From Melioribacter roseus (GTDB lineage Bacteria; Bacteroidota; Ignavibacteria; Ignavibacteriales; Melioribacteraceae): a DNA stretch of 64,000 nucleotides. Position 1 is the stretch's first letter, and each line of letters opens with the position of its first letter. Positions 4,971 through 22,799 of this stretch are shown here, piece after piece. The notes beneath the pieces were generated by a model. The model was not told the origin of the DNA and ran no database searches. It saw nothing but the letters and a program-made list of their open reading frames with translations. Location: assembly GCA_020726285.1 (NCBI GenBank), contig DYSW01000002.1:59059-123058 (forward strand), written 5' to 3'. The position numbers were made by a program, and so were the translations under genes.

Positions 4971-6020
4971 TTATTTATTGATTTTATTTAATAATAATAT
5001 TTTGAATTTTTCTATTTCTTCTAGTTGAAGACTAATTTTCGAGTAAAATATGTCAATGTCATCCAACTCTTTTGAAAAATTTACCAATTTTACAGCATCT
5101 TTTTCAGTTGTAATTACAGAATATGAATTTGTTTCGTAGAATTGCTTTCGGATGTATTGAACTTCTTTATTTGTATAGAATTTATGGTCTTTGAAAATGA
5201 GTTGGTTTGTTACATCCACATTTACATTGTTTAACGATGTAAAAAACGATTCTGGTTTTGCAATTCCTGCTACAAGTAAACTTTTTTGTCCAACAAAATC
5301 TTTAGCAGTGTAATCCTTTTTAGTTTTAATGTCAATAAATCCTTCTAAAAAGTAATTTGCATAAAACACTGGTTTTGATTCAAGAAATTTTTCCAAATTT
5401 TGAGGAATATTTTTCTTTGGATTGAATTTTCTATTGATTATTACAACATCCGCTCTGTGAATTGAATCAAACGATTCCCGCATCATTCCAGATGGTAAAT
5501 GCATTTTATCTAGGGAATTATCAGCAAGAATAAATTCTTGGTCGAGTAAAAGAATATTTACATCTCGCAAAATCCAGCGATGTTGAAAAGCATCATCTAA
5601 AATTAGTACTTTATTCTGAAATTTATCGTAGAGCAATTTTGCACCTAAAACTCTATTTTCAGAAACCGCAGTTGGAACTGAAACTGAATTGGAAGTAAGA
5701 ATAATTTCATCACCACATTCTTTTGCTGAGCAGACAAAATTATTCCCATCATAAACTAACCGAAATCCGTTGGATTTTCTTCCGTAACCTCTGCTTAGAA
5801 TTGCGTTTGAAATTCCCATTTGTGAAATCAATTTTGAAATGAAAATTACAGTTGGGGTTTTTCCTGTTCCACCTAATGTTAAATTTCCAACTGAAATTAC
5901 CTTCGACTGAACTTTTTTGGATTTGAAAATTCCTAAATCGAAAAGTGAATTTCTTGCGGAAATTACAATTGAGTACAATAACGAAAAGGGAAGTAATATA
6001 ATTTTAATAATTGTTAGCAA
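4971..6020 (-). CDS. lpxK: tetraacyldisaccharide 4'-kinase (lipid A biosynthesis)
   Basis: LpxK phosphorylates the 4' position of the lipid A disaccharide at the inner membrane. The 349-residue protein begins with a hydrophobic helix that fits its membrane attachment, followed by the P-loop G-G-T-G-K-T at residues 50-55. Further family marks are [18 protein letters not shown] and H-L-P-S-G. The start overlaps the DUF374 acyltransferase stop by 7 nt, and lpxB lies just beyond, so three lipid A/envelope genes are translationally coupled. Confidence 0.94.
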
Positions 6021-6667
6021 TTTTCTTCAATCTTTCTTTGTTCAGATAAAAATCTTTCATTTAATTGTTTTATAAGCAAATCGGTTTCATCATAATTTAG
6101 ATTTGCATCAACACTGATTGGTTCACTTATTTCTAATTTAATTTTTGAAAAAGGTTTTGGAATTTGAAATTTATCCCAACTTTTTAGAAACCAGCTTTCT
6201 TCAGCACAAACTAAAATTAAAAAAATCGGTTTATTCGTTTTTTTCGCTAAAACTATTGTTCCTGGCTTCATTTTATAAATTGGTCCAGTTGGTCCGTCTG
6301 GTGTAATTGCAACAGAAAAACCATTATTTATGCTATCTTCAAGTAATTTTAACGCTTCTTTCCCACCAATGTGCGATGAACCACGAATCATTTTATAATT
6401 CCAACTCTCAAGAATTCGTGACAAAATTTCTCCGTCTTTACTTAAACTAACGAGTGCTGAAATATTAAATTTACGAAGGAAATACCAAGGAATTAACATT
6501 TTGCCGTGCCAAAAAGCAGCAATAAATTGATTTCCGTTTTTTGCATAATCTTCAAGAACATTAGCATTTTTTACTTGAATTTTGTACGTAAGCAAAACCA
6601 AATTAATTACAATTGGTAGTAATCTATTTCCCAGAAAGTGAAATATTTTCTTTTTAATTGATTTCAC
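6014..6667 (-). CDS. DUF374 lysophospholipid-acyltransferase-like protein
   Basis: This 217-residue protein belongs to the DUF374 branch of the LPLAT acyltransferases. Visible marks are an N-terminal hydrophobic segment, F-W-H-G-K near residue 53, S-L-S-x-D-G-E, R-G-S-S-H-I-G-G and T-P-D-G-P-T-G-P. Relatives in other Gram-negatives sit in lipid A or Kdo gene clusters and are thought to acylate an envelope lipid; the substrate here is not known. It overlaps lpxB by 4 nt and lpxK by 7 nt, which supports a role in lipid A assembly, possibly in place of a classical LpxL/M acyltransferase. That last point is inference. Confidence 0.85.
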   Translation of the reverse strand: MKSIKKKIFHFLGNRLLPIVINLVLLTYKIQVKNANVLEDYAKNGNQFIAAFWHGKMLIPWYFLRKFNISALVSLSKDGEILSRILESWNYKMIRGSSHIGGKEALKLLEDSINNGFSVAITPDGPTGPIYKMKPGTIVLAKKTNKPIFLILVCAEESWFLKSWDKFQIPKPFSKIKLEISEPISVDANLNYDETDLLIKQLNERFLSEQRKIEENC

Positions 6668-7806
6668 ACTAAACCTTCCAAAATACTTTCGGCTAAATTT
6701 GTAGAATTTGGGACGTCAAGTTTTTCTTCAATTATTTTTAGATTATTTTTCAGATAATTCAATTTTTCGGGATTTTCAAGCAAATCTGAAATGAAATCGA
6801 CTAACTTTTCGCTATTTAAATCATTTTGAATAAATTCAGTAATAATTAATTTTTCGGCAACAATATTTACAAGCGAAATTGTTTCCATTTTTATCAACAA
6901 TTTTGCAATTAAATATGTAATAAAACTTGTTTTATAAACAGAAACGTAAGGAAGCTGAAACAATCCAGCTTCAAGTGTTGAAGTTCCAGATTTGATAATT
7001 CCAAATTTGGAATATTTCTGAAGTTCGTAATTTTTATTAGAAATTAGCTTAATTCCAGAATTCTGTATGAATTTGGAATAATTTTCAATAGAAAGATTTG
7101 AAGACGCAGCAACAACAATTTGCAAATTGTATTTTTTCGATAAAATATCAGCAGTTTTTAGAATTTCTTCAAAAATTAGTTCTATTTCGTGCTTTCTACT
7201 TCCAGGCATAAGGAGAAGAATTTCTTTATTTATATCAAGATTGTATTGTTCAAAAAAATCTTCTTTTGGTTGGAATTCATAATTTTTAATTCTTTTAATT
7301 AATGGATGTCCGACAAATTCGGCAAGAATTCCAAATTTTTGGAAGAATTTTACTTCAAATGGAAACAGCACAAACAATCTATCAATTATTGTTCTCATTT
7401 TCTTCGCTCTACCTTGTCCCCAAGCCCAAAGTTGAGGCGAAATGTAATAGAAAACTTTAATTTTGTGCTTCTTTAAAGCTTTTGCAAAATTCAGATTAAA
7501 TCCTGGGTAATCAATTAGAATTACATTTTTAATTTGATTTGTTTTCACAAAATTGAGCAAAATTTTCTTCGATTTTATGATAAACGGCAAATGTTTGATA
7601 ACTTCTGTAATTCCTAAAAAGGAAAAATCTTTTATGTTGAAAATAGCATTTAAACCAGCTTCAATCATTTTATTTCCACCAACTCCATAAAATTCCAAAT
7701 TTGGATTTTTGGCTAACATCTCAGAAATTAAAGAAGAACCGTGTAAATCACCCGAATCTTCACCAGCAATAATTAGAATTTTGTTATTTGTAGAAATTTT
7801 ATTCAT
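6664..7806 (-). CDS. lpxB: lipid-A-disaccharide synthase
   Basis: LpxB condenses UDP-diacylglucosamine with lipid X to form the tetraacyl disaccharide of lipid A, at the cytoplasmic face of the inner membrane. The 380-residue length is standard. Family marks in order are A-G-E-D-S-G-D near the N-terminus, Y-G-V-G-G, D-Y-P-G-F-N, I-S-P-Q-L-W-A-W, F-V-G-H-P-L, L-L-M-P-G-S-R and the UDP-sugar-binding segment G-T-S-T-L-E-A. The start codon directly follows the HAD phosphatase stop, and the end overlaps the DUF374 gene by 4 nt. With lpxK and lpxH in the window, several late lipid A steps are covered. Confidence 0.95.
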   Translation of the reverse strand: MNKISTNNKILIIAGEDSGDLHGSSLISEMLAKNPNLEFYGVGGNKMIEAGLNAIFNIKDFSFLGITEVIKHLPFIIKSKKILLNFVKTNQIKNVILIDYPGFNLNFAKALKKHKIKVFYYISPQLWAWGQGRAKKMRTIIDRLFVLFPFEVKFFQKFGILAEFVGHPLIKRIKNYEFQPKEDFFEQYNLDINKEILLLMPGSRKHEIELIFEEILKTADILSKKYNLQIVVAASSNLSIENYSKFIQNSGIKLISNKNYELQKYSKFGIIKSGTSTLEAGLFQLPYVSVYKTSFITYLIAKLLIKMETISLVNIVAEKLIITEFIQNDLNSEKLVDFISDLLENPEKLNYLKNNLKIIEEKLDVPNSTNLAESILEGLV

Positions 7807-8535
7807 TTAACCTTGTTCGTAGACTTCTTTTCGTTTTAGAAATGCTTGATGACGCTTTTTAAGATTTTTTTTGTTTACTAATTCTTCCAATTTTCGCTGA
7901 ACATCATTAAAATTTTTATATGGGAAATAGCTAATTCTATATGTCTCACAATAGCGTAGGAGAGTTTTTTTTGCAAAAACATAATCGCAGAATTCAACTG
8001 GACAAACATCTGAAAATCCATCGCCCACATAAATTGTGTAATCTTCATCTCCGCTATTGTTAATTATGTGATTTCGTTTACAATTGGCACATTTTTGGCA
8101 ATTTTCATCTCGAAAAGGGAATTGTGGTTTGCAAGAATTTTCTTCGAATTTTGCAATATTTGAGAAAGTTGGTAGATATTGCAATTGATATTTCTTCAAA
8201 ATTCGATTGATATAATAATCAAATCCATCGCTCAAAACGAAAATGTCAATTTCATTTTGCTTACAAAACGAAAGAAAACTCTGTAAATAGAAATCAATTT
8301 CTACTGAATCTATAAATTCGTTAATTAATTCTATGTTAATATTATCCAACATTATGCAAAGCATTTCCCAAGTTTGAATTGATGTTATTTCACCGTTTAG
8401 CCATCTTTTTACGATTGCGTATGCTTTTTCTCTATCAGTAAAACGAACAAATAGTTCTTCACCGACATCGATATTTGTTATAGTTCCGTCAAAATCAAGG
8501 AATACTTTATATCTTCTAGTTACTTTTTCGGTCAT
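7807..8535 (-). CDS. HAD-superfamily phosphatase (MtnX/phosphoserine-phosphatase-like) with cysteine cluster
   Basis: The HAD fold is shown by D14-F-D16-G-T near the N-terminus, L-S-D-G around residue 102 and G-D-G-F-S-D at residues 171-176, which give the nucleophile, acid and Mg-binding aspartates. The layout matches the MtnX-like branch (2-hydroxy-3-keto-5-methylthiopentenyl-1-phosphate phosphatases and relatives). Four cysteines, Cys135, Cys146, Cys149 and Cys152 (the last three as C-x2-C-x2-C), sit in the cap-to-core linker and may bind metal. No other methionine-salvage gene is nearby, so the substrate is open. It overlaps smc by one base and abuts lpxB. Confidence 0.75.
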   Translation of the reverse strand: MTEKVTRRYKVFLDFDGTITNIDVGEELFVRFTDREKAYAIVKRWLNGEITSIQTWEMLCIMLDNINIELINEFIDSVEIDFYLQSFLSFCKQNEIDIFVLSDGFDYYINRILKKYQLQYLPTFSNIAKFEENSCKPQFPFRDENCQKCANCKRNHIINNSGDEDYTIYVGDGFSDVCPVEFCDYVFAKKTLLRYCETYRISYFPYKNFNDVQRKLEELVNKKNLKKRHQAFLKRKEVYEQG

Positions 8536-11500
8536 TAGTTTGCACCAAGTTTTTCATCAAACTTAATTCCAGCTAATTTCGAAATTCCATCTTCAACCAT
8601 TGTAACGCCATAAATTGCATCAGTAAAAACCATTGTGTTTTTATTGTGAGTTACAATTATAAATTGTGTGTTTTCACTGAATTTGCGAATTAGTTTGGTG
8701 AATCTATCAATGTTTGCATCATCAAGTGGAGCATCAACTTCATCTAAAATACAAAAAGGCGATGGTTTTACGAGATAGAACGCAAATAATAATGCTGTAG
8801 CTGTAAGAGTTTTTTCGCCACCAGAAAGTAATTCAATTGATGTTGGTCGTTTTCCTTTTGGTTTGGCTGTAATGTTAATTCTTGCTTCCAAAGGGTCATC
8901 GTTATCTTCCATAACTAAATCTGCTTCGTCTTCGGGATCAAAAAGTGTTTGGAATGTTTTCTTGAAGTTCTGTCTGATTTGCTCGAAAGTTTCAACAAAT
9001 TGTTGTTGTGCAGTCTCGTTTATTTCATTTATTGTTTTCACTAAATCTTTTTCAGATTCAATTAAATCAGTTTTTTGTTGAACCAGAAAATCGTAACGAT
9101 CTTTTTGTTCCTCATATTCTGCATAAGCCAAAGTATTAATTGGTCCCAAACTTTTAATTTTTTCCCTGAGATTGGAAATATCTTGTTTTGTGTTTGGAAA
9201 GTCGAAAGATTCGATGTCTTCAAATTCCTTTTTCTCAAGTTCAATTGAATATTCTTCTCGAATATGCGTATGAAGTGATTCGAATTCGAAAGTTAGTTTG
9301 TTTATTTCCAAATCGTATGTGTGAATTTTATCAGAAATATTAGTTCGTTCATTACGGTATTTTTGTACTTGTGTTTCCAATTCGGTTTGATTTTGACGAA
9401 CTTCGGATAATTTCTCTTCGATTTCTTTTCTTGATTCGTAAAGTGAATTTCGTTCACCTTTTAATTCATCTAATTCGAGAGTTCTTTCTTCAATTCTAAC
9501 TTTTAATTCTGCAATTTCTATTTCACTTTGTTGAATATTTTCTTTTCGCTTTTTAAGTGCATCTTCAATATTTCTTAGATTTGCCCTTATTTGCTCGATT
9601 TTGTTGTGTTCATTTCTCAGCAAACCTTTCGCTTTTTCAAGTTCAATCGATTTATCATTTTTAGCTTGAAGTAGTATATTAAAATTTTCTTCAAACTTGC
9701 TATAATCTGTCTGTAATTTCGAGATTTCAATTAATACTTCCGATTTCTGCTTTTCTAAAATCTCGGCAGTTTGTTTAAGTTCTTCAATTACTAAGTTGGA
9801 ATTCTCAATTTCGTGCAATTCAGAGGAAATTTGAGTCTCGCTATTTTGAATTTGCTCTGAAAATTTCTCGCTTTCAGATTCCAAACGGGCAATTTGCTTT
9901 TCGAAATTCACAATTTCTAACGAAACTCTTTTACCTTTTTCGCTTATCATGTCCAAATCAATTGAATCGAATTGTGCTTGAATTCTATTCTTTTCAGAAA
10001 CAACTTTTTCCAATTCAATTTTTCGATTCTCAGATTCTCTCTGTAAATCAACAACAAGTTGCTTCCTTCCGAAAAGTGTATCATCTAATTTTGGCAAAGA
10101 ACCAGCGTCAATAATTCCATCTGCCTGAATTAAATCGCCATCAAGAGTAACAAAAGTGAATTCTGGAAACTTTTTTGTCATTTCAATTGCAGTAGAAATT
10201 GTGGTAACAATAGCTGTTTTAAATAGAATTTTTTGAAAATAAGGATGCCATTTTTCTTCAGTTTGAACGTGATTAATTGTCCAATCGACAAAGCCGTTTT
10301 CTTTTTCCAATAATTTTATTTTACGTGTGTCGAAATAATCTGAGAATTTTTCGAAAATTGATTTTTTCTGATTTGAGAAATTTCCAAGTAAAAAGAAAGA
10401 TGCTTTTCCTAAATCTTGCGTTTTTAGATAATCTATTGCCTTGTTTAAGGAATCTAAATCTTCAATTAAAAGGTTGTTTAGTACTTTTTTGAGTGCGGCT
10501 TCTAAAGCATAACGGAATTTATCGTCAGTTTTTCCAACATCGGCAAAAAGTGTTTTATCTTTTTCATTCCATTCATTGTTGCTAATTAGAACTTTGGAGC
10601 CTTTTGAAACGCCTTCAAGATTTTCAATCAAATTATTTACGAAATCAATTTTATCTTCCAAAGCTGTAATAAAACTACGCTGATTTGTTTCTTTTTCAAA
10701 TAATTCTTGAACTTGCAAGCCAAGATTTTCTTTCTCATTTTTGAAAGAGACATATTCTTTTTCGCGTTCAGCAAGAAGATTTTCGGCAAGAATTTTGGCT
10801 TCGTTAAGTTCATCAATTAAACCAACGGTTTTTGCAATTTCATCTGTCCATTCTTGAATTTTGGTGTATAATATTTCAACTCTTTTTTGTGTCGATTCCA
10901 CATTTTTGTGCAAAGAAAGTATTTCGTTATTCTTCTGATTTAGTGAGATTTCATGGTTTTTTAAAATCTCTTCTCTTAATTTTAGATGATTTTGCTTTTC
11001 AGAAAGTATAACTTTGTCTTTTTCCACTTTGGATAATTTTTGTTCAAATTCCGATTTGTTTAAGTCAATAATTTGTTCAAATTTTAGAATATTTTGGTAG
11101 GAATCATCAACATTAAATTGGTTTTCTTCATTCTGAAAATTCAATTCTTCTACTTCAGATTTGTATCTTTCTATATTTTGCGAAAGCGATTTATCTCTTT
11201 CGGCTGCGACTGAAATTTCTTGTTGAAACTGATGAAATTGTTCATTTATTTTGCCAATTTCAGTTTGTTTAATTCTCAAACTTCGTTCAATTTCGAGAAC
11301 AATATCACGAATTGATATTAATTTTAATTCAATTTCATGAATTTGTGAATCAGTTAATTCTCGATTATGCTGCAAAATCTCAATTCCAGAAGTTAATTCC
11401 TCAATTCTTGAAATCAAGATGGTAAATCTTCTTTCAGAATAATTAATTTCTTTTTCTCTAAGTTCAGTCTGAAGAATGTTGAATTTATCAGCTTTTTTGG

Positions 11501-12125
11501 CTTGTCTTTCTAAAGCAACCACATTTTTCTGCACTTCAGAAATAATGTCGTTTACACGAGTTAAATCTGATTTTACTTCTTCAAGTTTTTTAAGTGAAAT
11601 CTTTCTTCTGTGTTTATATTTGTTAACTCCGGCAGCTTCTTCAAACATTTTTCTTCTTTCGCCAGTTTTATCATTTAGAATTCCTTCAACCATTTTCAAT
11701 TCAATTACAGAATAAGCGTTTGTAGCCATTCCTGTATCCATAAAAAGGTTTGTGATATCTTTCAGACGACAAACATTTTTGTTAAGAAGATATTCACTTT
11801 CGCCCGAGCGGAAAATCCGGCGTGTTATTGTTACTTCGGAATAATCAGTCGGAAGTGTGTTATCGTCATTTACAAAAGTTATTGAAACTTCACTCATTCC
11901 CAATGGTTTTTTTGTTTTAGTTCCATTGAAGATTACATTTTCCATTTTATCGCTGCGTAAAGTACTGCTTTTTTGTTCGCCCAAAACCCAACGAATTGCG
12001 TCAACGGTATTTGTTTTACCGCAACCATTTGGACCAACAATTCCGGTAACACCTTTATCAAAATGAAGTGTTGTTTTGTTCGCAAAAGATTTAAATCCAA
12101 AAAGTTCAAGTCGAGAAATGTGCAA
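8535..12125 (-). CDS. smc: chromosome segregation ATPase SMC
   Basis: SMC is the large coiled-coil ATPase that, with ScpA and ScpB (both encoded at 28.7-30.0 kb), compacts and separates sister chromosomes. The 1196-residue protein has Walker A G-P-N-G-C-G-K-T at 31-38, a long heptad-rich first arm, a hinge at roughly 500-680, a second coiled-coil arm, the ABC signature L-S-G-G-E-K at 1100-1105 and Walker B L-D-E-V-D-A-P-L-D-D-A-N. The length and order are normal. It starts 9 nt after the upstream membrane protein gene and overlaps the HAD phosphatase by one base. Confidence 0.97.
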   Translation of the reverse strand: MHISRLELFGFKSFANKTTLHFDKGVTGIVGPNGCGKTNTVDAIRWVLGEQKSSTLRSDKMENVIFNGTKTKKPLGMSEVSITFVNDDNTLPTDYSEVTITRRIFRSGESEYLLNKNVCRLKDITNLFMDTGMATNAYSVIELKMVEGILNDKTGERRKMFEEAAGVNKYKHRRKISLKKLEEVKSDLTRVNDIISEVQKNVVALERQAKKADKFNILQTELREKEINYSERRFTILISRIEELTSGIEILQHNRELTDSQIHEIELKLISIRDIVLEIERSLRIKQTEIGKINEQFHQFQQEISVAAERDKSLSQNIERYKSEVEELNFQNEENQFNVDDSYQNILKFEQIIDLNKSEFEQKLSKVEKDKVILSEKQNHLKLREEILKNHEISLNQKNNEILSLHKNVESTQKRVEILYTKIQEWTDEIAKTVGLIDELNEAKILAENLLAEREKEYVSFKNEKENLGLQVQELFEKETNQRSFITALEDKIDFVNNLIENLEGVSKGSKVLISNNEWNEKDKTLFADVGKTDDKFRYALEAALKKVLNNLLIEDLDSLNKAIDYLKTQDLGKASFFLLGNFSNQKKSIFEKFSDYFDTRKIKLLEKENGFVDWTINHVQTEEKWHPYFQKILFKTAIVTTISTAIEMTKKFPEFTFVTLDGDLIQADGIIDAGSLPKLDDTLFGRKQLVVDLQRESENRKIELEKVVSEKNRIQAQFDSIDLDMISEKGKRVSLEIVNFEKQIARLESESEKFSEQIQNSETQISSELHEIENSNLVIEELKQTAEILEKQKSEVLIEISKLQTDYSKFEENFNILLQAKNDKSIELEKAKGLLRNEHNKIEQIRANLRNIEDALKKRKENIQQSEIEIAELKVRIEERTLELDELKGERNSLYESRKEIEEKLSEVRQNQTELETQVQKYRNERTNISDKIHTYDLEINKLTFEFESLHTHIREEYSIELEKKEFEDIESFDFPNTKQDISNLREKIKSLGPINTLAYAEYEEQKDRYDFLVQQKTDLIESEKDLVKTINEINETAQQQFVETFEQIRQNFKKTFQTLFDPEDEADLVMEDNDDPLEARINITAKPKGKRPTSIELLSGGEKTLTATALLFAFYLVKPSPFCILDEVDAPLDDANIDRFTKLIRKFSENTQFIIVTHNKNTMVFTDAIYGVTMVEDGISKLAGIKFDEKLGAN

Positions 12126-12134
12126 AAGAAGCTC

Positions 12135-14609
12135 CTAAAAATACTTGATGTTGGATATTTGGGTGATTAGAAAATCCCAAGTATTGAATGAAAGGTGGTA
12201 AAATAAGAAAATACTTCCCCAAAAAATTGTAATAGAAACAAACGTAATAAAATATGCTGTTCGTGGAAAAACATCAAACACAACATAAATTCCTTTAACA
12301 TATCTAAAAAGTAACCAAAACCCATAAATCACTAAAAAGATATATATAAAATCATTAAAAACATTAAGATTTAATATTTTTAGAAGAAGTAATTCGAGAA
12401 CTAAAAGGATTGTTACTGGCATAAATGCCCAAGTTGAAGTATAAAATATACTTGCAACAAACACTTTTGTTCTATTAAAAAAGCCAAAAAAACGTGCAAG
12501 TAGAATTAAAAACACAAGTTTTAATAGTACGAGAATGAAAACAATGTAAAATGAGCTAATAGGATTCCAAGCTAAATAGCTAATAAAATCGAGTAGGGAA
12601 TTATCTGAAAAAGATAAAATTAAACGTTCGAGAGATAAGTTGGCACGCAAGAAAAACAGAATATTGATAATTAGCAATGAAATTGTTGCGGCTACAATGA
12701 AAAACATAAAGTAAGAATGAAATCCTAAAAGAAGCCTTTGGTCGCGAATATCAGAAAAGAAATTGTACGTTCGTAGTAAAGCTCGCATTGTATCTTCTTG
12801 GAATTTTCGGCGAAGATTGATTGTAATTCCCATTAAAATGGCTAAGAAAAGTGGAACAAGAATGAAAATTAACGGCGTTTTAGTATTTGCAGTCCCAAGT
12901 GGTATTATAATTCTCTTTTCTAAATTTAATCTGTTTTCAATTACGTTGTATGACGTTCTACTTACTTTTCTATTTATTCCCAAAATACCAATTTTATATA
13001 AATTTCTATCAGAATATGAAGAATAAAGGGAACTGTAATCACCGGAATAATCTACTAAAGTATTGAAAAACACTCCAGCATTTCCGTTCTTTTCTGTTAA
13101 TGTTAAAATTTCATCAAAAAATCTTCCTTGTGCTTCATAGGAATTTTCCCATAAATGCCCTTTTTTGCTACCTTCAAAAACTGGATATTCGGCAGTTATG
13201 AACAAATTTTTATTAAAATCTTGTGGAATTGCTTTCATTTTGGAATAAAATTCTACATTAACAAAATCGAGATTTAATTCAGAAGTAGGGAAATCCAAAA
13301 AAGATGCGGAAGAGAGTTTTCCATAAGAATTAATTTTATTTGAAAAATTTTCAACGAAATTCAGTAAATCAGTTGAATTTGGGTCTAGAGAACTCGCAAT
13401 ATTCACAACAAAAACATTGTCATATTTTGATATGTAACTCAATAAATCATCAGAAAAATTCTCAAATCTTTCAATAAATACTTCATCAGTAACATAATTT
13501 TCAGGGAGCATATTTACAGGAATATCAATTGCCACGAACAAGTTCAGTTTTTGGCAAATATCTAAAATTTGTGGAGTTGGAATGGAATTGTTAAATCTAA
13601 TTGTATTGAAACCCAATCTTTTAGCGATTTTCAAGTCGTTTTCTACAACTTTAAATGATAATTTCGGGTTGCTTTGTGTAGAAAAAGGCGTGTAATTAAC
13701 ACCAAATATTTTTTGTGGAACTCCATTTACAAAAAGTTGATTATCTTTTTTATAAAAATCTAAAAGTAGTTTTTCAGTTGAAAAATCATCAATTTTGTTC
13801 CCATTTTCTAAAATTGAGACTGAGAGAGTAATTCGTTGAAAAACTTGTGAAACAGGGATGTTAATTGGAAAATTCAATTGCAGAGTAGATTTCTGTTTAT
13901 CAGATAATTGAACAACTCGAGAAGAGATTAATGTCTTATTTTCACTAAATAATTGAATTTCAACAACTTGCGTTGATTTTGTTTTATTAGCCTCAAGCCA
14001 AAAAGACAAATTATGTTTTTCAAAATTATACTTAAATTTTACAATTTGAACATTAGTTTTGGGAATTAATTCTATATAAGCACCGCTTAAAATTCCCTTA
14101 AAATGGTTAGGAAACATCAAACTTTGCTTTAGCGGAATAGTTGTTTTTGAATTAATTTCAGAATTTACATTCAATGATAATATATTCTTTTGCTTGGAAG
14201 TAAGAATGTCTTGTGGAATTAAAAATCGATTAGGAATTATAGAAAATGGATTTTTATAGACAGCTTGTTCATTTATTTTAAGATCAAAGTTGTTGGAAAT
14301 ATTTTCTGTAACAAAATAGATATTGTAATTTTTTATCTGATTTTCTGTTAAAGAAACGCCTTTGTCAAAAATCAAATATTCAGAATTCGAAAATTTAACT
14401 GGTAAATTTATTCTTGCAGAATTTTCTGATTCTGGTATAGAAATCTTCCAATCTGAGAGTAAAGGTATTATTTGGCGAGAAGTAGAATTTAGATTTAAAT
14501 TTGAATAGTAATTTTTTAAGTAATCATTACTTATCGATTCAATATGGATAGAACTAAAAACATTATTAAATGTTAAAAATAGCAAAAACGAAACAAAAGT
14601 TTTATTCAA
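12135..14609 (-). CDS. membrane-anchored glycoside-hydrolase-family-2-like protein, probable pseudoenzyme
   Basis: This is an 824-residue protein. An N-terminal signal-like segment (about 1-20) is followed by beta-rich sequence to about 290. A region at 290-550 looks like a GH2/GH5-type barrel: it opens with F-V-N-G-V-P-Q, then D-L-K-I-A-K-R-L-G-F-N-T-I-R. From about 576 there are roughly seven or eight hydrophobic helices. The strand-7 motif I-T-A-E-Y keeps Glu474, where GH2 enzymes have their nucleophile. The strand-4 Asn-Glu pair reads Asn403-Ile404, so the acid/base is missing. Sugar binding without hydrolysis is possible; the role is unknown. Translation probably starts at a TTG with GAGG seven bases upstream. 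It heads the smc-lpx-ppdK unit. Confidence 0.6.
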   Translation of the reverse strand: MNKTFVSFLLFLTFNNVFSSIHIESISNDYLKNYYSNLNLNSTSRQIIPLLSDWKISIPESENSARINLPVKFSNSEYLIFDKGVSLTENQIKNYNIYFVTENISNNFDLKINEQAVYKNPFSIIPNRFLIPQDILTSKQKNILSLNVNSEINSKTTIPLKQSLMFPNHFKGILSGAYIELIPKTNVQIVKFKYNFEKHNLSFWLEANKTKSTQVVEIQLFSENKTLISSRVVQLSDKQKSTLQLNFPINIPVSQVFQRITLSVSILENGNKIDDFSTEKLLLDFYKKDNQLFVNGVPQKIFGVNYTPFSTQSNPKLSFKVVENDLKIAKRLGFNTIRFNNSIPTPQILDICQKLNLFVAIDIPVNMLPENYVTDEVFIERFENFSDDLLSYISKYDNVFVVNIASSLDPNSTDLLNFVENFSNKINSYGKLSSASFLDFPTSELNLDFVNVEFYSKMKAIPQDFNKNLFITAEYPVFEGSKKGHLWENSYEAQGRFFDEILTLTEKNGNAGVFFNTLVDYSGDYSSLYSSYSDRNLYKIGILGINRKVSRTSYNVIENRLNLEKRIIIPLGTANTKTPLIFILVPLFLAILMGITINLRRKFQEDTMRALLRTYNFFSDIRDQRLLLGFHSYFMFFIVAATISLLIINILFFLRANLSLERLILSFSDNSLLDFISYLAWNPISSFYIVFILVLLKLVFLILLARFFGFFNRTKVFVASIFYTSTWAFMPVTILLVLELLLLKILNLNVFNDFIYIFLVIYGFWLLFRYVKGIYVVFDVFPRTAYFITFVSITIFWGSIFLFYHLSFNTWDFLITQISNIKYF

Positions 14610-14770: not shown

Positions 14771-15763
14771 TTAAAAACTAATGCTAAATGGAACTGGAAT
14801 GATTGTTAATAAAAACATCAGAATAGCAAAATATCCCAACATTTTCCTTTTTAAATCGAGATTATAAAAAGCCATTACGGGTGGATGTTTTACTTTTACA
14901 AAAAAATAAAGCACAAAACCCCAGAATAACCAACCACTCCAAACGAATGGAAAAGAAGTTCCCAAAAATTCATTTGCAAAACCTAATGTACCGCTAACAA
15001 TTAAAAAGATAAGGAAAATGCTTCCAATTGCTTCTTGAATTTTATGACCAAACATTGAATAAATAATATGTCCACCATCTAATTGCCCTACTGGAATCAA
15101 ATTCATTGAAGTTATTAGCAACCCAAACCATCCTGTAATTAAAAAAGGATAATGGTACATTTCACTCATTGGTGGCACAAAAGTATTTGAATTCGTAAAA
15201 AGATTTTGAAGTAAAAAATAGAGAATTGTATTTCCAAACTCCAAATGAACTGAGTTTGCAGCATAATTCTGCGACAAATAGTCTGGATGTATTGCTAGAA
15301 GATATTCAATTCCAGGTAAGTTTGAAAAACCAAATGTCAAAACCAAAATACTTGCAAAAAAACCAGAAATTGGTCCAAAGATTCCAATATCAAATAGTTT
15401 GATATTATCAGAAAATTTCGCTTCAATTTTAATTACCGCTCCCATCGTCCCAAAATTAAGAAAACCACCAATTGGTGGAAATGGAATGTAAAAAGGTAAA
15501 GTCGTTCTAACTTTGTGATATTTAGCTGCAAAATAATGACCAAATTCGTGAAAAGTTATGATAAATAAAATTGAAATTGAGTATGGTAAACCTTTTGAAA
15601 TTAATTCAGAAAATTGATATGGTGGAATTGAGGCACTCGACCATTGCGTTCCAGCAAAAATTGTTGTTAAAATTGTAAACAAAAAAAGGGAAATATTTAT
15701 CCATATTCTTTTGTTAACTTTTGTTGAAGGTTTAGCAAAATTTTTATTAATAAAATCATTCAT
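14771..15763 (-). CDS. site-2-protease-type membrane metallopeptidase (M50 family)
   Basis: About 330 residues with at least six hydrophobic helices. The zinc motif H-E-F-G-H lies in T-F-H-E-F-G-H-Y-F-A-A, and the third ligand is in the family motif Q-L-D-G-G-H. Such proteases cut transmembrane segments, for example of anti-sigma factors; the target here is unknown. I place the start at the ATG at 15763. The frame stays open further upstream to 16024, but that part overlaps the divergent 90-residue gene and has unrelated composition. A TAAATTTG promoter-like element sits at 15776-15783, just before this ATG. Confidence 0.85.
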   Translation of the reverse strand: MNDFINKNFAKPSTKVNKRIWINISLFLFTILTTIFAGTQWSSASIPPYQFSELISKGLPYSISILFIITFHEFGHYFAAKYHKVRTTLPFYIPFPPIGGFLNFGTMGAVIKIEAKFSDNIKLFDIGIFGPISGFFASILVLTFGFSNLPGIEYLLAIHPDYLSQNYAANSVHLEFGNTILYFLLQNLFTNSNTFVPPMSEMYHYPFLITGWFGLLITSMNLIPVGQLDGGHIIYSMFGHKIQEAIGSIFLIFLIVSGTLGFANEFLGTSFPFVWSGWLFWGFVLYFFVKVKHPPVMAFYNLDLKRKMLGYFAILMFLLTIIPVPFSISF

Positions 15764-15775
15764 CTTAATTAATCT

Positions 15776-15783
15776 CAAATTTA
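15776..15783 (-). promoter_or_regulatory. possible -7 element (TAAATTTG) for the site-2 protease gene
   Basis: The minus strand matches TAnnTTTG exactly, 12 bases upstream of the ATG at 15763. No clear TTG was seen at the -33 distance, so the call rests on one element. If used, the leader would be only a few bases long. Confidence 0.3.
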
Positions 15784-15890
15784 GGTGCCAAAATATTAAA
15801 AAAATAATTAATGATAAATTTTTCGTTCTGCCATGCGTTAGTAAATAATAAGAAATACTTAAATTGATATACAAATTTTGAATAAGAAAT

Positions 15891-16163
15891 ATGAAATTAA
15901 AAGAAAAAGACTTTGAACTATTTTTGGAAGAATTGAAAAATCTTGCAACCCAAATGGGAGCAAAAGTAAGATATGAACGTGGTGATTTTGCCGGTGGTTT
16001 TTGTCTGCTAAAAGAAAACAACATAATTGTAATAAATAAACTTTCTACATTACAAAAAAAAGTAACGATTTTAGCAGCAGCTTTAAAAGAATTAGGTGTT
16101 GATGATTTGTATCTTCCTCCAAAATTAAGAGAATTTATTGATGAAATGGATGGTAACAGATGA
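15891..16163 (+). CDS. conserved small protein of unknown function
   Basis: A 90-residue soluble protein with no signal peptide or membrane segment. It has an acidic/basic helical start, a central G-G-F-C-L-L-K-E-N-N-I-I-V-I-N-K strand pair and the ending L-P-P-K-L-R-E-F-I. The stop overlaps the aroQ start by 4 nt, so the two are probably translated together. I recall similar short proteins next to aroQ or xerD in related genomes, but I cannot assign a function. Coding is supported by the ATG, the tight overlap and base use like its neighbours. Confidence 0.7.
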   Translation: MKLKEKDFELFLEELKNLATQMGAKVRYERGDFAGGFCLLKENNIIVINKLSTLQKKVTILAAALKELGVDDLYLPPKLREFIDEMDGNR

Positions 16164-17218: not shown

Positions 17219-18721
17219 ATGCTCAAATCATTAGAAATTAAATCAGATAAGCCAAAATCATTCTGTGGTGTTTTTGGTTGTTTTGGAACTGAAACGGCAA
17301 GTTTAGATGCTTATTATGGATTATTTTCACTTCAACACAGAGGACAAGAATCTGCTGGAATAGTTACGGCTGAAAATATTGAGAAAACAAATAAAGTTAA
17401 ATTTAATTTTCATAAAGATTTTGGCTTAGTTTCTGAAGTATTTCATGATAGTAATATCTTTGCAACAAAACTAAAAGGGAAAGCATCAATTGGCCATAAT
17501 CGTTATTCAACCACTGGTTCTTCAATTTCAAAAAAGAATATTCAACCCTTTGTTGTTAACTATAGAAACGGACATTTAGCAATTGCTCATAACGGAAATC
17601 TGACAAATGCAAAGGAAATTAGAGATAGATTAGTTTCAGAAGGAGCAATTTTCCAATCAACTAGTGATTCTGAAGTAATACTACATTTAATTGCACACTC
17701 AAAAATGGAAAATCAAATTGAGCAAATAATTGAAGCATTACAACAAATTGAAGGAGCATATTCAATTACTATTTTACTTGATAATATGCTAATAGCAGCA
17801 AGAGACAAACACGGATTTAAGCCACTTAGCATTGGGAAACTTAACGGAGCATTATTTGTAGCATCTGAAACATGTGCTTTTGATATTAATAAAGCTGAAT
17901 ATATTCGTGATGTTGCTCCGGGTGAATTAATAGTTATTGATGAAGAAGTATTAAATAATAAACAAATTAAATCTTTTCAAATCTTTGATGGAAATGAAGA
18001 AATTCCAAAGCATTGCATATTTGAATTCATCTATTTTTCTCGTCCAGATAGTAAGATATTTGGTACAAGTGTAGATAAAATCAGAAGAAAATTGGGAAAA
18101 ACATTAGCAATTAAGCACCCTGTTTCTGATCCAGATGGTGAAAAAGTGATTGTCATTAGTGTTCCAGATAGTTCAAACACGACAGCAATCGGTTATCAAC
18201 AAGCATTAGAAAAATTAGGCATCGATTCAAAGTATGAAATTGGTCTAATTCGTAGTCATTATGTTGGACGAACTTTTATTCAACCGGCTCAATCAAAAAG
18301 GGAATTGGGAGTTCGAATTAAATTTAATACAGTAAAAGGTGTTTTACAAGGTAAAACTATTGTTGTCGTTGATGATTCAATAGTTCGTGGAACAACAAGT
18401 AAACAACTCATTAATTTAATTCGCGAAGCAAAGCCGAAATCTATTCATCTCAGAATCTCTTCTTCACCAATTCACTATCCATGTTATTATGGAATGGATT
18501 TTCCGTCAAAAGACGAACTAATCGCTAATAGATTTCCAACAATTGATGCCATTGCAGAATATCTTGGTGTTGATACACTTAAATTTATGACTAATGAGGA
18601 AATGTTAGAAGCTATGGTTGATCATGCTCCCGACCATTTCTGTACTGCATGTTTTTCTGGTAAATATCCAACAATTGTAAATAGTAATTTTTTCAAAGAA
18701 GAGTATGATGAAGAAGTTTAA
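17219..18721 (+). CDS. purF: amidophosphoribosyltransferase
   Basis: PurF makes 5-phosphoribosylamine from PRPP and glutamine, the first step of purine synthesis. The 500-residue protein is of the B. subtilis type. A 15-residue leader precedes Cys16 in C-G-V-F-G, the N-terminal nucleophile that is exposed after cleavage of the leader. The Q-H-R-G-Q-E-S-A-G block follows. Cysteines in H-C-I-F-E-F, Y-P-C-Y-Y-G and D-H-F-C-T-A-C-F fit the four 4Fe-4S ligands. The PRPP motif is V-V-V-D-D-S-I-V-R-G-T-T. Its end overlaps the secreted subtilase by 17 nt, an odd partner for a purine gene. Confidence 0.96.
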   Translation: MLKSLEIKSDKPKSFCGVFGCFGTETASLDAYYGLFSLQHRGQESAGIVTAENIEKTNKVKFNFHKDFGLVSEVFHDSNIFATKLKGKASIGHNRYSTTGSSISKKNIQPFVVNYRNGHLAIAHNGNLTNAKEIRDRLVSEGAIFQSTSDSEVILHLIAHSKMENQIEQIIEALQQIEGAYSITILLDNMLIAARDKHGFKPLSIGKLNGALFVASETCAFDINKAEYIRDVAPGELIVIDEEVLNNKQIKSFQIFDGNEEIPKHCIFEFIYFSRPDSKIFGTSVDKIRRKLGKTLAIKHPVSDPDGEKVIVISVPDSSNTTAIGYQQALEKLGIDSKYEIGLIRSHYVGRTFIQPAQSKRELGVRIKFNTVKGVLQGKTIVVVDDSIVRGTTSKQLINLIREAKPKSIHLRISSSPIHYPCYYGMDFPSKDELIANRFPTIDAIAEYLGVDTLKFMTNEEMLEAMVDHAPDHFCTACFSGKYPTIVNSNFFKEEYDEEV

Positions 18722-21700
18722 GATACTTTTTGTAATATTAATAATTTTTTCGCTTAATAATGGTCAAGATAGATACTTACTGAAATTTGATAAAAAGAGT
18801 CAGATTCAACTCAAGGAATTAAAACAAATTATTCAAAATAATATTAGCAATAATGTTGTAAGTGATGTAAATAAACAAGTTACTGAGTTTGTATTTAATC
18901 AATATCTATCAGATTATGGAATATATTTTTTTCTTGAGACAAATACGAATGCAAATCTTTCAGAAATTACGCTTTCTTTGTCAAAAAATTCAGATTTACT
19001 AAATGTCGAGAAATTGTCTGAGTTTCATACGCATGAAATTATTCCAAATGATATAGAATATATAAATCAATGGGGATTAGAAAAAGCAGATTTTCATTTA
19101 GCATGGGAGCATGAAGTTGGAAGTAATGACATCAAAATTGCTTTAGTTGATACTGGCATCGATTACTTGCATGAAGATTTGCAGAATTGTATTGGATATA
19201 ATTATAAGGAATTTGGTGTAGATATTAATGGGAACAATAAAATATCTAACGGAATTGATGATGATCAAAATGGTTTTATTGATGATTATCTAGGTTGGAA
19301 CTTTGTTGAAAATTCATTAAACGGGAATAATCCTACGGATGACCAAGGACATGGAACTTCAGTTGCTGGAGTTATTGGAGCATCAAGTAATAATGAGATT
19401 GGTATCACTGGGATTAGCTGGAATTCCAAAATTATAATTGCCAAAGCATTTAATAAATATGGCTATGGCAAAGAAGAAGATGTTTCTGCAGCTTTGTTGT
19501 ATTCATTTATTCGTGGAGCACAAATAATAAATATGAGTTTTGGCGATGTTACTTATTCAATATTATTTAAAGACGTAATTGATTTTCTGACTAATAATAA
19601 TGTTATTTTGGTCGCGAGTGCGGGAAATAGTGAATCAGATAATCCGCATTATCCATCAGCTTTTCCATCTGTAATTTCAGTTGGAGCATCAGATATTAAC
19701 GATAATTTGTCTTCATTTTCAAATTTTGGAAATACAATAGATTTGCTTGCTCCGGGTTCTGAAATTCTAACTACTTCAATTCAAGATGATAAAAAATATA
19801 ATTTAGTAAGCGGCACTTCAATTGCAGCTCCATTTGTAACAGGTTTAGCATCTCTGCTCCTATCAAGGAATAATAATTTATCAATAAGCGATTTATCACA
19901 AATATTTAAAACAACTGCGGATGATTTATATTCAGAAGGTTTTGATTATTATTCCGGAAGCGGAAGAATAAACGCATTGAAAGCTGTGTTAGCTAATTCT
20001 CAGCAAAGAATTCAGGTTAATTTTCCTTTAAATACTTCTGCATTTTCTGATACTACTTTTTCAGTGAACGTAACTGCAATTTCGCCTAATTTTCAAAATT
20101 ATAAAATTCAACTTGACCAATTAAACGAAACTGAAGATTGGGAAACAATTTTCACGTCGAGTTACCAAATAGTTGATTCTAATGTTTGTGATATTAATAC
20201 TACACTATTAAGCGAAGGATTCTATACTATCCAGTTAGTTGTATTTAATTATGATGGAACTTCAAGTGAAGAAAGAGTGCAGTTTGAAATAATTAAATCT
20301 GCTCCCAAAACGGAATGGTATTTATTTTCAACAGCTTTTGAAAATGGAAATCCGACAATTTCATTTAATTTAGGTTTTAACCAATATTGTACTTCGGAAG
20401 TATTGTTTGATGTTTTTCCATTTGACAATAAATTTGAAAAATTTTATTTGGACAATCTTTCAAAAAATATTGGTGATTACAGAAACATACATTCTGGTTC
20501 TTTACCAGATATTCTTAATGGGAGCACAGATATTAAATTCAAAATATTTTCAAAAAACCGTGCAAACCTTACAAATTATTTCCCAGAAAATAATTATGAA
20601 GTATTTGAATTAGGAATAACTCCCCTAAATCTAATACCAAGTGAAACAAGCTCTAAGATTTATGGTGATGTTTACCCCAAATTTTATATCAAAGATTCTA
20701 CTCCATATCTTTTGGTTAATGAATATGATTCATTCAGTGATTTGAAAATATATGAATTTAATGAATTTAGTGAATTAACTTTAGTGAAAACAGTTGAGAG
20801 TCGAAGAATTCCAAGAATTATTCAGGACGTAAATTCAGATGGGAAAAATGAAATAATTAGTTTCTCCTACCCAAATTTGTACATTGATTCGGAAGTGGAG
20901 CAGAATTCAATTAATTGGGAAAATATAATTTCTTTTAATACGATTCCTAATGTTTTGCTAATTGCTGATATTGACTTTGATAATAAATTAGAAATTGTTT
21001 CAACTGCATTTGATTCATTAATTCAAATATTCGAAATAGACTCTTCTTTAAAATTGAGTATTGAAGCAACTTTGAAGAATGAAACACAATATTTTGATAA
21101 AGATAACTCTCCAAATAAAATAATCACTTATGAAACTTCACTTTTAGATGGAGCATTCTATCTTATTGATTATGAAGGAGATATCCTAAAAATCACATCC
21201 TATGCTCCTAATGCCTATTCAATAAATTTAATTACAAACTTTCCAATATTATTTGAAGAAGCAATCATAAAAAATGATTCTGAAAACAATTTGTATTTGC
21301 AAGGAATAGTAAATTCTGAGATTTTTCCTCAAAATCAAGGATTTCTATTAAAATATGCGTTAGAAGAAACTCTGCAACTTATTGATATAAAATCATTTAT
21401 AGATAATCGAGAAACATCTTCAATAACAAATAATACTCTGCAAATTGTTGATTCACTTATTCTTTCATCAGTATTTAATGATTTCTACTTAATAAGTACC
21501 AAAACTGATGTAATTTTAGATTATTCAGATAACAAAAACACTAATGCTCCCACAAAATTTCTTTTGAGTGATTCATTATACGGCACACTATTTTTCTCAA
21601 AACCTGATGAACTTTCTAACAAACAGATAGTTGTAAAACTAGATAATAACACAACAGAATTACCTCTTGTCAAGGAATTATTTTGTGTAGATTCTAATTA

Positions 21701-22799
21701 TGTTAGTCTAACTTTAAACAAATTAACTGAAAATACTAAGTTGTTTAAATCTTTAGATTCACTAAATTATGTTCACATAACTGATTTAACACAAACAACT
21801 TATATAGATTCAAATGTAAGTTATGGTAAAATATGGTATAAAATATCAGTAATTAATCAACTTGAAAATGAAATTTTAAGTAAACCTTACGAAGTTTTTG
21901 TTCATCCAAAAATAACAATTCTTCAAGTCGAACAACTTGGCAATAAGTCGATAGAAATAAAATTTACAGATAAAATCAATACCAATTATTATTATGCTCC
22001 CGAGCATTATTTCAAAATAAATAATGATATTTTTCCAACTTCACTAATACCAAATAGCCAGAACTCAATTTTGTTAACCTTTGAAATTGACTTTAATCTT
22101 GGAACTTCATACCAATTAACCAATGAAAATATTTATGACTTTTGGAATTCTCCGATTGAAAATTCCACGGTTTTGTTTGAGGGTAACTATGTTGCAGCCG
22201 AAAAAGAATTCTTTATTTCAAATTTCACACTAAATAAAAATTCTAATGTTGTGTCGATTTCTTTCAATTTACCTTTTGATGAGAGTACAATCTTAGAATT
22301 GACAAACTATTCAATTACGCCAAAAAATAAGATTTTACGAATTAATGTAAAAAATCAGAATCAAATTGAAATTGAACTTCAGAATCAAATTGGTTTGGGA
22401 GCATCAGCATATCAATTAGAAATCTCAAATATTTATTCGACTGTTGAGACCGGTAGCATAAAATTGAATAATGACGAAGGCAATAAAATCTACTTAGTTT
22501 CTACAGAAAATAATCTAGAAAATCAATATGCTTATCCAAATCCTATTAATTTATCTATAAATAATAAGATGGTTTTCGGTAATCTTACAAAGCATTATGA
22601 AATTAGTATCTACGACATTAATATGAATTTGATTAAAAAAATTGAGAATCCCGAAACTCTGGGATATTATATTTGGGACTTGAAAAATCAGAAGAACGAA
22701 ATAATTTCTTCTGGTGTTTATATTTATAAAGTAAACTCAATGAACGATAAAGGTGAAATAATTGAAACAAAAACAAATAAATTTGCAATTGTAAAATGA
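18705..22799 (+). CDS. secreted subtilisin-like serine protease with T9SS sorting domain
   Basis: A 1364-residue protein. A signal peptide (about 1-22) is followed by a short prodomain-like region and an S8 peptidase domain. Its triad is Asp149 (V-D-T-G-I-D), His216 (G-H-G-T) and Ser372 (S-G-T-S-I-A-A-P). Later regions are beta-rich, with a D-V-N-S-D-G-K-N-E-I-I segment like FG-GAP/VCBS repeats and fibronectin-like stretches. The last 90 residues form a Por C-terminal sorting domain, with Y-P-N-P and a final S-G-V-Y-I-Y-K. It should be exported by Sec, then moved to the surface by the type IX system. Two ATGs in a row start it, inside the purF end. The pgsA start overlaps its stop. Confidence 0.9.
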   Translation: MMKKFKILFVILIIFSLNNGQDRYLLKFDKKSQIQLKELKQIIQNNISNNVVSDVNKQVTEFVFNQYLSDYGIYFFLETNTNANLSEITLSLSKNSDLLNVEKLSEFHTHEIIPNDIEYINQWGLEKADFHLAWEHEVGSNDIKIALVDTGIDYLHEDLQNCIGYNYKEFGVDINGNNKISNGIDDDQNGFIDDYLGWNFVENSLNGNNPTDDQGHGTSVAGVIGASSNNEIGITGISWNSKIIIAKAFNKYGYGKEEDVSAALLYSFIRGAQIINMSFGDVTYSILFKDVIDFLTNNNVILVASAGNSESDNPHYPSAFPSVISVGASDINDNLSSFSNFGNTIDLLAPGSEILTTSIQDDKKYNLVSGTSIAAPFVTGLASLLLSRNNNLSISDLSQIFKTTADDLYSEGFDYYSGSGRINALKAVLANSQQRIQVNFPLNTSAFSDTTFSVNVTAISPNFQNYKIQLDQLNETEDWETIFTSSYQIVDSNVCDINTTLLSEGFYTIQLVVFNYDGTSSEERVQFEIIKSAPKTEWYLFSTAFENGNPTISFNLGFNQYCTSEVLFDVFPFDNKFEKFYLDNLSKNIGDYRNIHSGSLPDILNGSTDIKFKIFSKNRANLTNYFPENNYEVFELGITPLNLIPSETSSKIYGDVYPKFYIKDSTPYLLVNEYDSFSDLKIYEFNEFSELTLVKTVESRRIPRIIQDVNSDGKNEIISFSYPNLYIDSEVEQNSINWENIISFNTIPNVLLIADIDFDNKLEIVSTAFDSLIQIFEIDSSLKLSIEATLKNETQYFDKDNSPNKIITYETSLLDGAFYLIDYEGDILKITSYAPNAYSINLITNFPILFEEAIIKNDSENNLYLQGIVNSEIFPQNQGFLLKYALEETLQLIDIKSFIDNRETSSITNNTLQIVDSLILSSVFNDFYLISTKTDVILDYSDNKNTNAPTKFLLSDSLYGTLFFSKPDELSNKQIVVKLDNNTTELPLVKELFCVDSNYVSLTLNKLTENTKLFKSLDSLNYVHITDLTQTTYIDSNVSYGKIWYKISVINQLENEILSKPYEVFVHPKITILQVEQLGNKSIEIKFTDKINTNYYYAPEHYFKINNDIFPTSLIPNSQNSILLTFEIDFNLGTSYQLTNENIYDFWNSPIENSTVLFEGNYVAAEKEFFISNFTLNKNSNVVSISFNLPFDESTILELTNYSITPKNKILRINVKNQNQIEIELQNQIGLGASAYQLEISNIYSTVETGSIKLNNDEGNKIYLVSTENNLENQYAYPNPINLSINNKMVFGNLTKHYEISIYDINMNLIKKIENPETLGYYIWDLKNQKNEIISSGVYIYKVNSMNDKGEIIETKTNKFAIVK

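Follow-up and report, generated by a model that had tools for sequence, protein, structure and literature searches.

A putative non-catalytic, GH2-shaped membrane protein encoded next to smc in Melioribacter roseus and related bacteria

Why should a protein with the shape of a glycosidase, fused to a membrane tail, be encoded almost in contact with smc? This question is raised by a gene, here called PGH2, in a stretch of 64,000 nt from Melioribacter roseus (contig DYSW01000002.1, positions 59,059 to 123,058), referred to below as the window and numbered from its first letter. PGH2 lies on the minus strand (12135..14609) and codes for a pseudo-GH2/Yip1-type membrane protein of 824 aa. The original prediction had read this region as one open frame ending in about 250 residues of transmembrane helices, and both statements hold, the helical tail comprising 249 residues in the structure model. 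No study of a PGH2-type protein was found in the open-access literature.

All parts of the protein are given here with their minus-strand coordinates. A signal peptide (residues 1–20; 14550..14609) was called by eye from the hydrophobic N-terminus and a model helix at residues 2–14, not by a prediction program. It is followed by a beta sandwich of the GH2 sugar-binding type (residues ~41–190; 14040..14489), seen in the model strands and as PF02837 in orthologs, by a GH2 immunoglobulin-like domain (residues ~191–290; 13740..14039), seen in the model strands and in orthologs exceeding the curated cut-off for PF00703, and by a TIM barrel (residues ~291–565; 12915..13739). The AlphaFold model of PGH2 (mean pLDDT 89.6, pTM 0.87) contains all eight barrel strands (301–305, 336–339, 358–362, 399–403, 432–437, 449–455, 469–474 and 512–517). 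The barrel proposed in the original prediction is therefore complete, and the R-L-G-F-N-T-I-R strand containing R338 was correctly recognised. GH2 beta-glucuronidases are the best structural matches: Foldseek ranks 5z1a first (E 6.2e-28), and VIA-align superimposes PGH2 on 6ld0_A with a Z of 30.0 and an rmsd of 2.9 over 510 residues (34–564). The Pfam matches of the window's own protein stay below cut-off; all six scanned orthologs exceed it for PF02836 (barrel) and PF00703. Model, fold search and ortholog profiles thus agree on the GH2 order of sandwich, Ig-like domain and TIM barrel, which is identical to that of the beta-glucuronidases 5z1a, 8dhe and 6ld0. Unlike these enzymes, PGH2 has not kept the catalytic Glu pair, is fused to the membrane and adjoins smc.

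The fate of this pair was read from alignments. When eight GH2 paralogs were added to the family alignment, the GH2 Asn-Glu pair fell on Ser406-Ser407 of PGH2, which leaves the acid/base site empty. The same placement results from profile alignment to PDB 8dhe and 5z1a, a family motif G-l-G-s-s standing against G-L-F-N-E in 8dhe. At the end of strand 4, where GH2 enzymes have Glu after Asn, the window's protein therefore has Ser407 (13389..13391). The original prediction was right about the empty acid/base site and placed it, at Asn403-Ile404, three residues too early; followed across orthologs at Ser407, the column holds Glu in just 7 of 136 family members. Its second proposal, a nucleophile Glu474 in place, was not supported. 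The end of strand 7 reads Thr472-Ala473-Glu474 (13188..13196; model strand 469–474), and in ungapped register Thr fills the nucleophile column, as Thr472 in the window and likewise in the nearest relatives, with Glu474 two residues further on. Among the 136 members (80 of the order, window included, and 56 from other orders and classes) 68 have Glu in the nucleophile column, and in no case are both catalytic positions acidic. An earlier tally on 119 members handled gaps differently from this final one. The eight GH2 controls all showed the nucleophile and six showed both residues, the remaining two not being aligned to Glu at the acid/base column. Judged by these alignments, the catalytic pair is lost across the family, and an active beta-galactosidase was rejected on its absence. 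The loss is a reading of alignments rather than of superposed coordinates, and the active site may still be within reach of Glu474.

An enzyme with unusual chemistry, in which Glu474 or another carboxylate acts, perhaps with assistance from the substrate, would find some support in the 62 of 80 order-level members with Glu in the nucleophile column and in the well conserved barrel residues R338, D448, Y475, N516 and D520. We regard it as quite improbable, as no member is acidic at both positions and the nucleophile column is variable outside the order, where Ser, Glu, Gly, His, Arg, Thr, Cys and others occur. The barrel also carries a conserved G-(H/Y)...S-x-E-x-Q motif (residues 484–494; 13128..13160), which reads NGYSDPxSxEAQA in other lineages. 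PGH2 is under purifying selection despite its lost chemistry. Compared with its nearest relative, which is 90% identical to the window (locus L031), the whole gene evolves at a dN/dS of 0.17, residues 21–290 at 0.21, the barrel at 0.12 and the tail at 0.16, values obtained from this one genome pair by a simple counting method. Binding is the most fitting role for a glycosidase fold that lacks its catalytic pair and is both constrained and anchored in the membrane.

What, then, is the membrane part? Its first transmembrane helix (residues 581–599; 12813..12869) is a model helix, followed by a module (residues 600–824; 12138..12812) that, on profile evidence, is of the Yip1 type in most members. 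PF04893 (Yip1) is matched by 50 of 62 family tails, with E values up to 1 and a best value of 7.7e-9, and no other Pfam family was matched by more than 2 of the 62. For the tail encoded in the window Pfam showed no match, which puts it below detection. A stand-alone relative (L134) exceeds the Pfam cut-off for PF04893 (33.3 bits vs 28.6). In the model the helices of the tail (pLDDT 89.7) are compatible with the Yip1 pattern of five membrane-spanning helices and a cytoplasmic start, their sidedness being predicted. Tail and Yip1 groups from the same genomes were only weakly alike in hhalign comparisons (P 0.17 and 0.28, controls 0.20–0.26), and a comparison with one single Yip1 sequence gave P 0.0024. 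In the PDB, no fold match to the tail reached an E below 0.001 or a Z of at least 5, and sequence matches were weak, with a best E of 0.095. By profile, the tail of most members resembles the Yip1 domain family, stand-alone bacterial members included, but PGH2 differs by one extra helix in front and by its GH2-type ectodomain. Top among the weak hhalign matches to the tail was a Yip1-type protein with a cysteine-rich, zinc-ribbon-like N-terminus (L177, genome G040).

The strongest conservation was found in a basic helix pair at the membrane junction (residues 597–628; 12726..12821), with a mean of 3.25 bits per column against 1.38–2.28 in the other regions compared, and with invariant residues in the alignments, Arg and Asp among them. 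Signal peptide and positive charge together predict a cytoplasmic position for this pair. One review proposes that Yip1 proteins could act as channels, transporters or receptors, and notes that prokaryotic members are without reported function (PMC6682643). That the Yip1-type module of PGH2 moves a small solute, with the ectodomain as a substrate-catching lid, would accord with two of these proposals and nevertheless appears a poor prospect: no transporter was matched by sequence or fold, no substrate suggests itself, and conservation is highest in the juxtamembrane helix pair.

We return to the reading as a binder. Binding instead of cutting, as the original prediction had suggested, is likely given the GH2-like fold without a catalytic pair, the fusion to the membrane and the close-packed row that PGH2 shares with smc and lpx genes. 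As a whole, PGH2 is somewhat more probably than otherwise a putative receptor or scaffold of the inner membrane without catalytic activity. The signal peptide would send the GH2-shaped ectodomain into the periplasm, a topology that we infer. With the catalytic pair lost, the mouth of the barrel most likely binds its ligand and leaves it uncut; this ligand may be a glycan of the envelope or a protein. The Yip1-type module would expose the strongly conserved basic helix pair to the cytoplasm as a likely output face, through which a signal might cross the membrane and contact with SMC might be made.

The original prediction of a common row with smc and lpx genes is confirmed by TIGR and Pfam profiles of the neighbors, all on the minus strand. 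Directly downstream, after a gap of 9 nt, lies smc (8535..12125; TIGR02168, 976.9 bits), followed by genes scoring over the respective cut-offs for an MtnX-like HAD-IB phosphatase (7807..8535; TIGR01489), lpxB (6664..7806; TIGR00215), a DUF374 protein (6014..6667; PF04028) and lpxK (4971..6020; TIGR00682). From PGH2 to lpxK all gaps are at most 9 nt, or the genes overlap. PGH2 and smc are probably co-transcribed. A scan for promoters and terminators was uninformative, with 41 promoter-like elements vs 39.3 by shuffling and 3 terminator-like ones vs 3.3. On the other side, 161 nt upstream of PGH2, a profile match identifies a Peptidase_M50 gene (14771–16024); it occupies this place in the window and in L031, but of 60 order-level loci whose flank is long enough just one has it.

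The same fusion beside smc, for which the original prediction had suggested looking in related genomes, was found across the lineage. In all 76 judged order-level loci (of 80) the next gene downstream is a co-oriented smc, which lies within 20 nt in 74 of these 76, distances being counted between open frames. Among loci from other orders and classes, smc follows directly in 34 of 57 (27/40 plus 7/17). The 57 are those listed genomes whose match is of the family type: 56 have barrel and tail, and G209 has the tail alone. Two further loci (L214, L215) stand outside the analysed set. Adjacency is thus conserved, as an SMC-linked protein would lead one to expect. Co-orientation and near contact make PGH2 similar to other genes in bacterial smc neighborhoods, but no such adjoining membrane protein was found in the open-access literature. 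The 23 non-adjacent loci fall in families f6, f7, f9, f11, f17 and f18. Thirteen of them were placed in a tree, where they group in a single clade (support 0.998); the remaining ten belong to the same families as the set of this clade. Since the placed exceptions form one clade, the adjacency looks ancestral and lost once. As this clade keeps PGH2 away from smc, contact with SMC would not be required everywhere. A search for smc in 30 genomes matched 27, in which, among readable flanks, only G209 and G074 show a family member just upstream; some of the matches are fragments without a readable upstream flank.

Could the association be inherited rather than functional? PGH2 may be a passenger, that is, a non-catalytic envelope factor belonging to the lpx neighborhood, with smc next to it by frozen old gene order. 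This explanation competes with the link to SMC only, not with the pseudoenzyme reading, and we consider its chances evenly balanced. In its favor, a shared gene order is in itself no proof of a functional link, and every one of the 61 order-level loci with 7 kb downstream has lpxB there, as do 17 of 26 outside the order. Against it stand the smc-adjacent loci outside the order with at least 7 kb downstream (n = 26): smc is kept in 26/26, lpxB in 17/26 and the HAD gene, the other neighbor of smc in the window, in 13/26, and in 9 of the 26 the retrieved flank showed smc and no lpxB. The rarity of the M50 gene upstream likewise speaks against a block preserved as such. The lpx genes are less constant partners of PGH2 than smc is. 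A functional link of the putative receptor or scaffold to SMC is, on gene order, possible.

PGH2 is carried by 54 of the 58 searched genomes, the own genome included, far above chance, and this presence rules out a protein confined to one genus. The four misses do not look like real losses, because in two genomes (G015, G025) a contig ends inside the 5' part of smc, and the other two (G023, G043) are also without detectable smc and lpxB. In G098 and G251 smc is present and PGH2 was not detected. Across the phylum sample, a threshold of 1e-30 gave matches in 123 of 296 genomes, many of these being ordinary GH2 matches to the ectodomain. Other phyla were reached by one scan, in which the 80 listed matches bear titles of this group or generic ones, with 219 further matches.

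Two eroded members are informative about which part of the protein lasts longest. G209 has a frame of 294 residues, 126 nt from smc, with the Yip1 module and without the GH2 part (L134/L183). In G074 a protein of 588 residues overlaps smc and retains an eroded barrel and the membrane junction; it matches the family profile with a total of 36.5 bits in two stretches, one in the barrel and one at the junction, and gave no match in Pfam. In these two cases the membrane part and the smc neighborhood outlast the GH2 ectodomain. One could go further and assume that the pseudo-GH2 ectodomain reads the state of a wall or surface glycan and that the Yip1 helix pair recruits or tunes SMC, which would make PGH2 a membrane receptor for SMC. 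We think this unlikely. If true, such a receptor would tie chromosome organisation to the growth of the envelope, and the lineage with the Yip1 part alone beside smc would mark the membrane part as central to the link.

Fold, loss of the pair, relation to Yip1 (in most members), purifying selection and gene order are computed results. This membrane protein is present almost throughout a deep bacterial group and is tied by gene order to the main chromosome organiser. Similarity searches will label it a beta-galactosidase or GH2 enzyme, though on its sequence it probably does not cut. PGH2 makes two questions testable, the function of bacterial Yip1 domains and a possible membrane partner of SMC in these bacteria, and it is the order of genes at smc that makes a link to SMC worth testing.

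Where smc is not adjacent, a search for another constant neighbor gave one large divergent gene, which faces PGH2 at a distance of 69–522 nt in seven loci (L128–L131, L133, L148 and L149); the eighth locus of the cluster, L137, is not such a case. This gene comprises 2321 codons in L130, and from its appearance we presume it to be perhaps sprA-like. In three loci with PGH2 away from smc (L185, L195 and L205, from G152, G205 and G287) smc is preceded on the same strand by two frames that we take to be mreD- and mreC-like. Elsewhere in the window (18705–22799), a frame of 1364 residues with what we assume to be a subtilase-like region lies downstream of a presumably purF-like gene.
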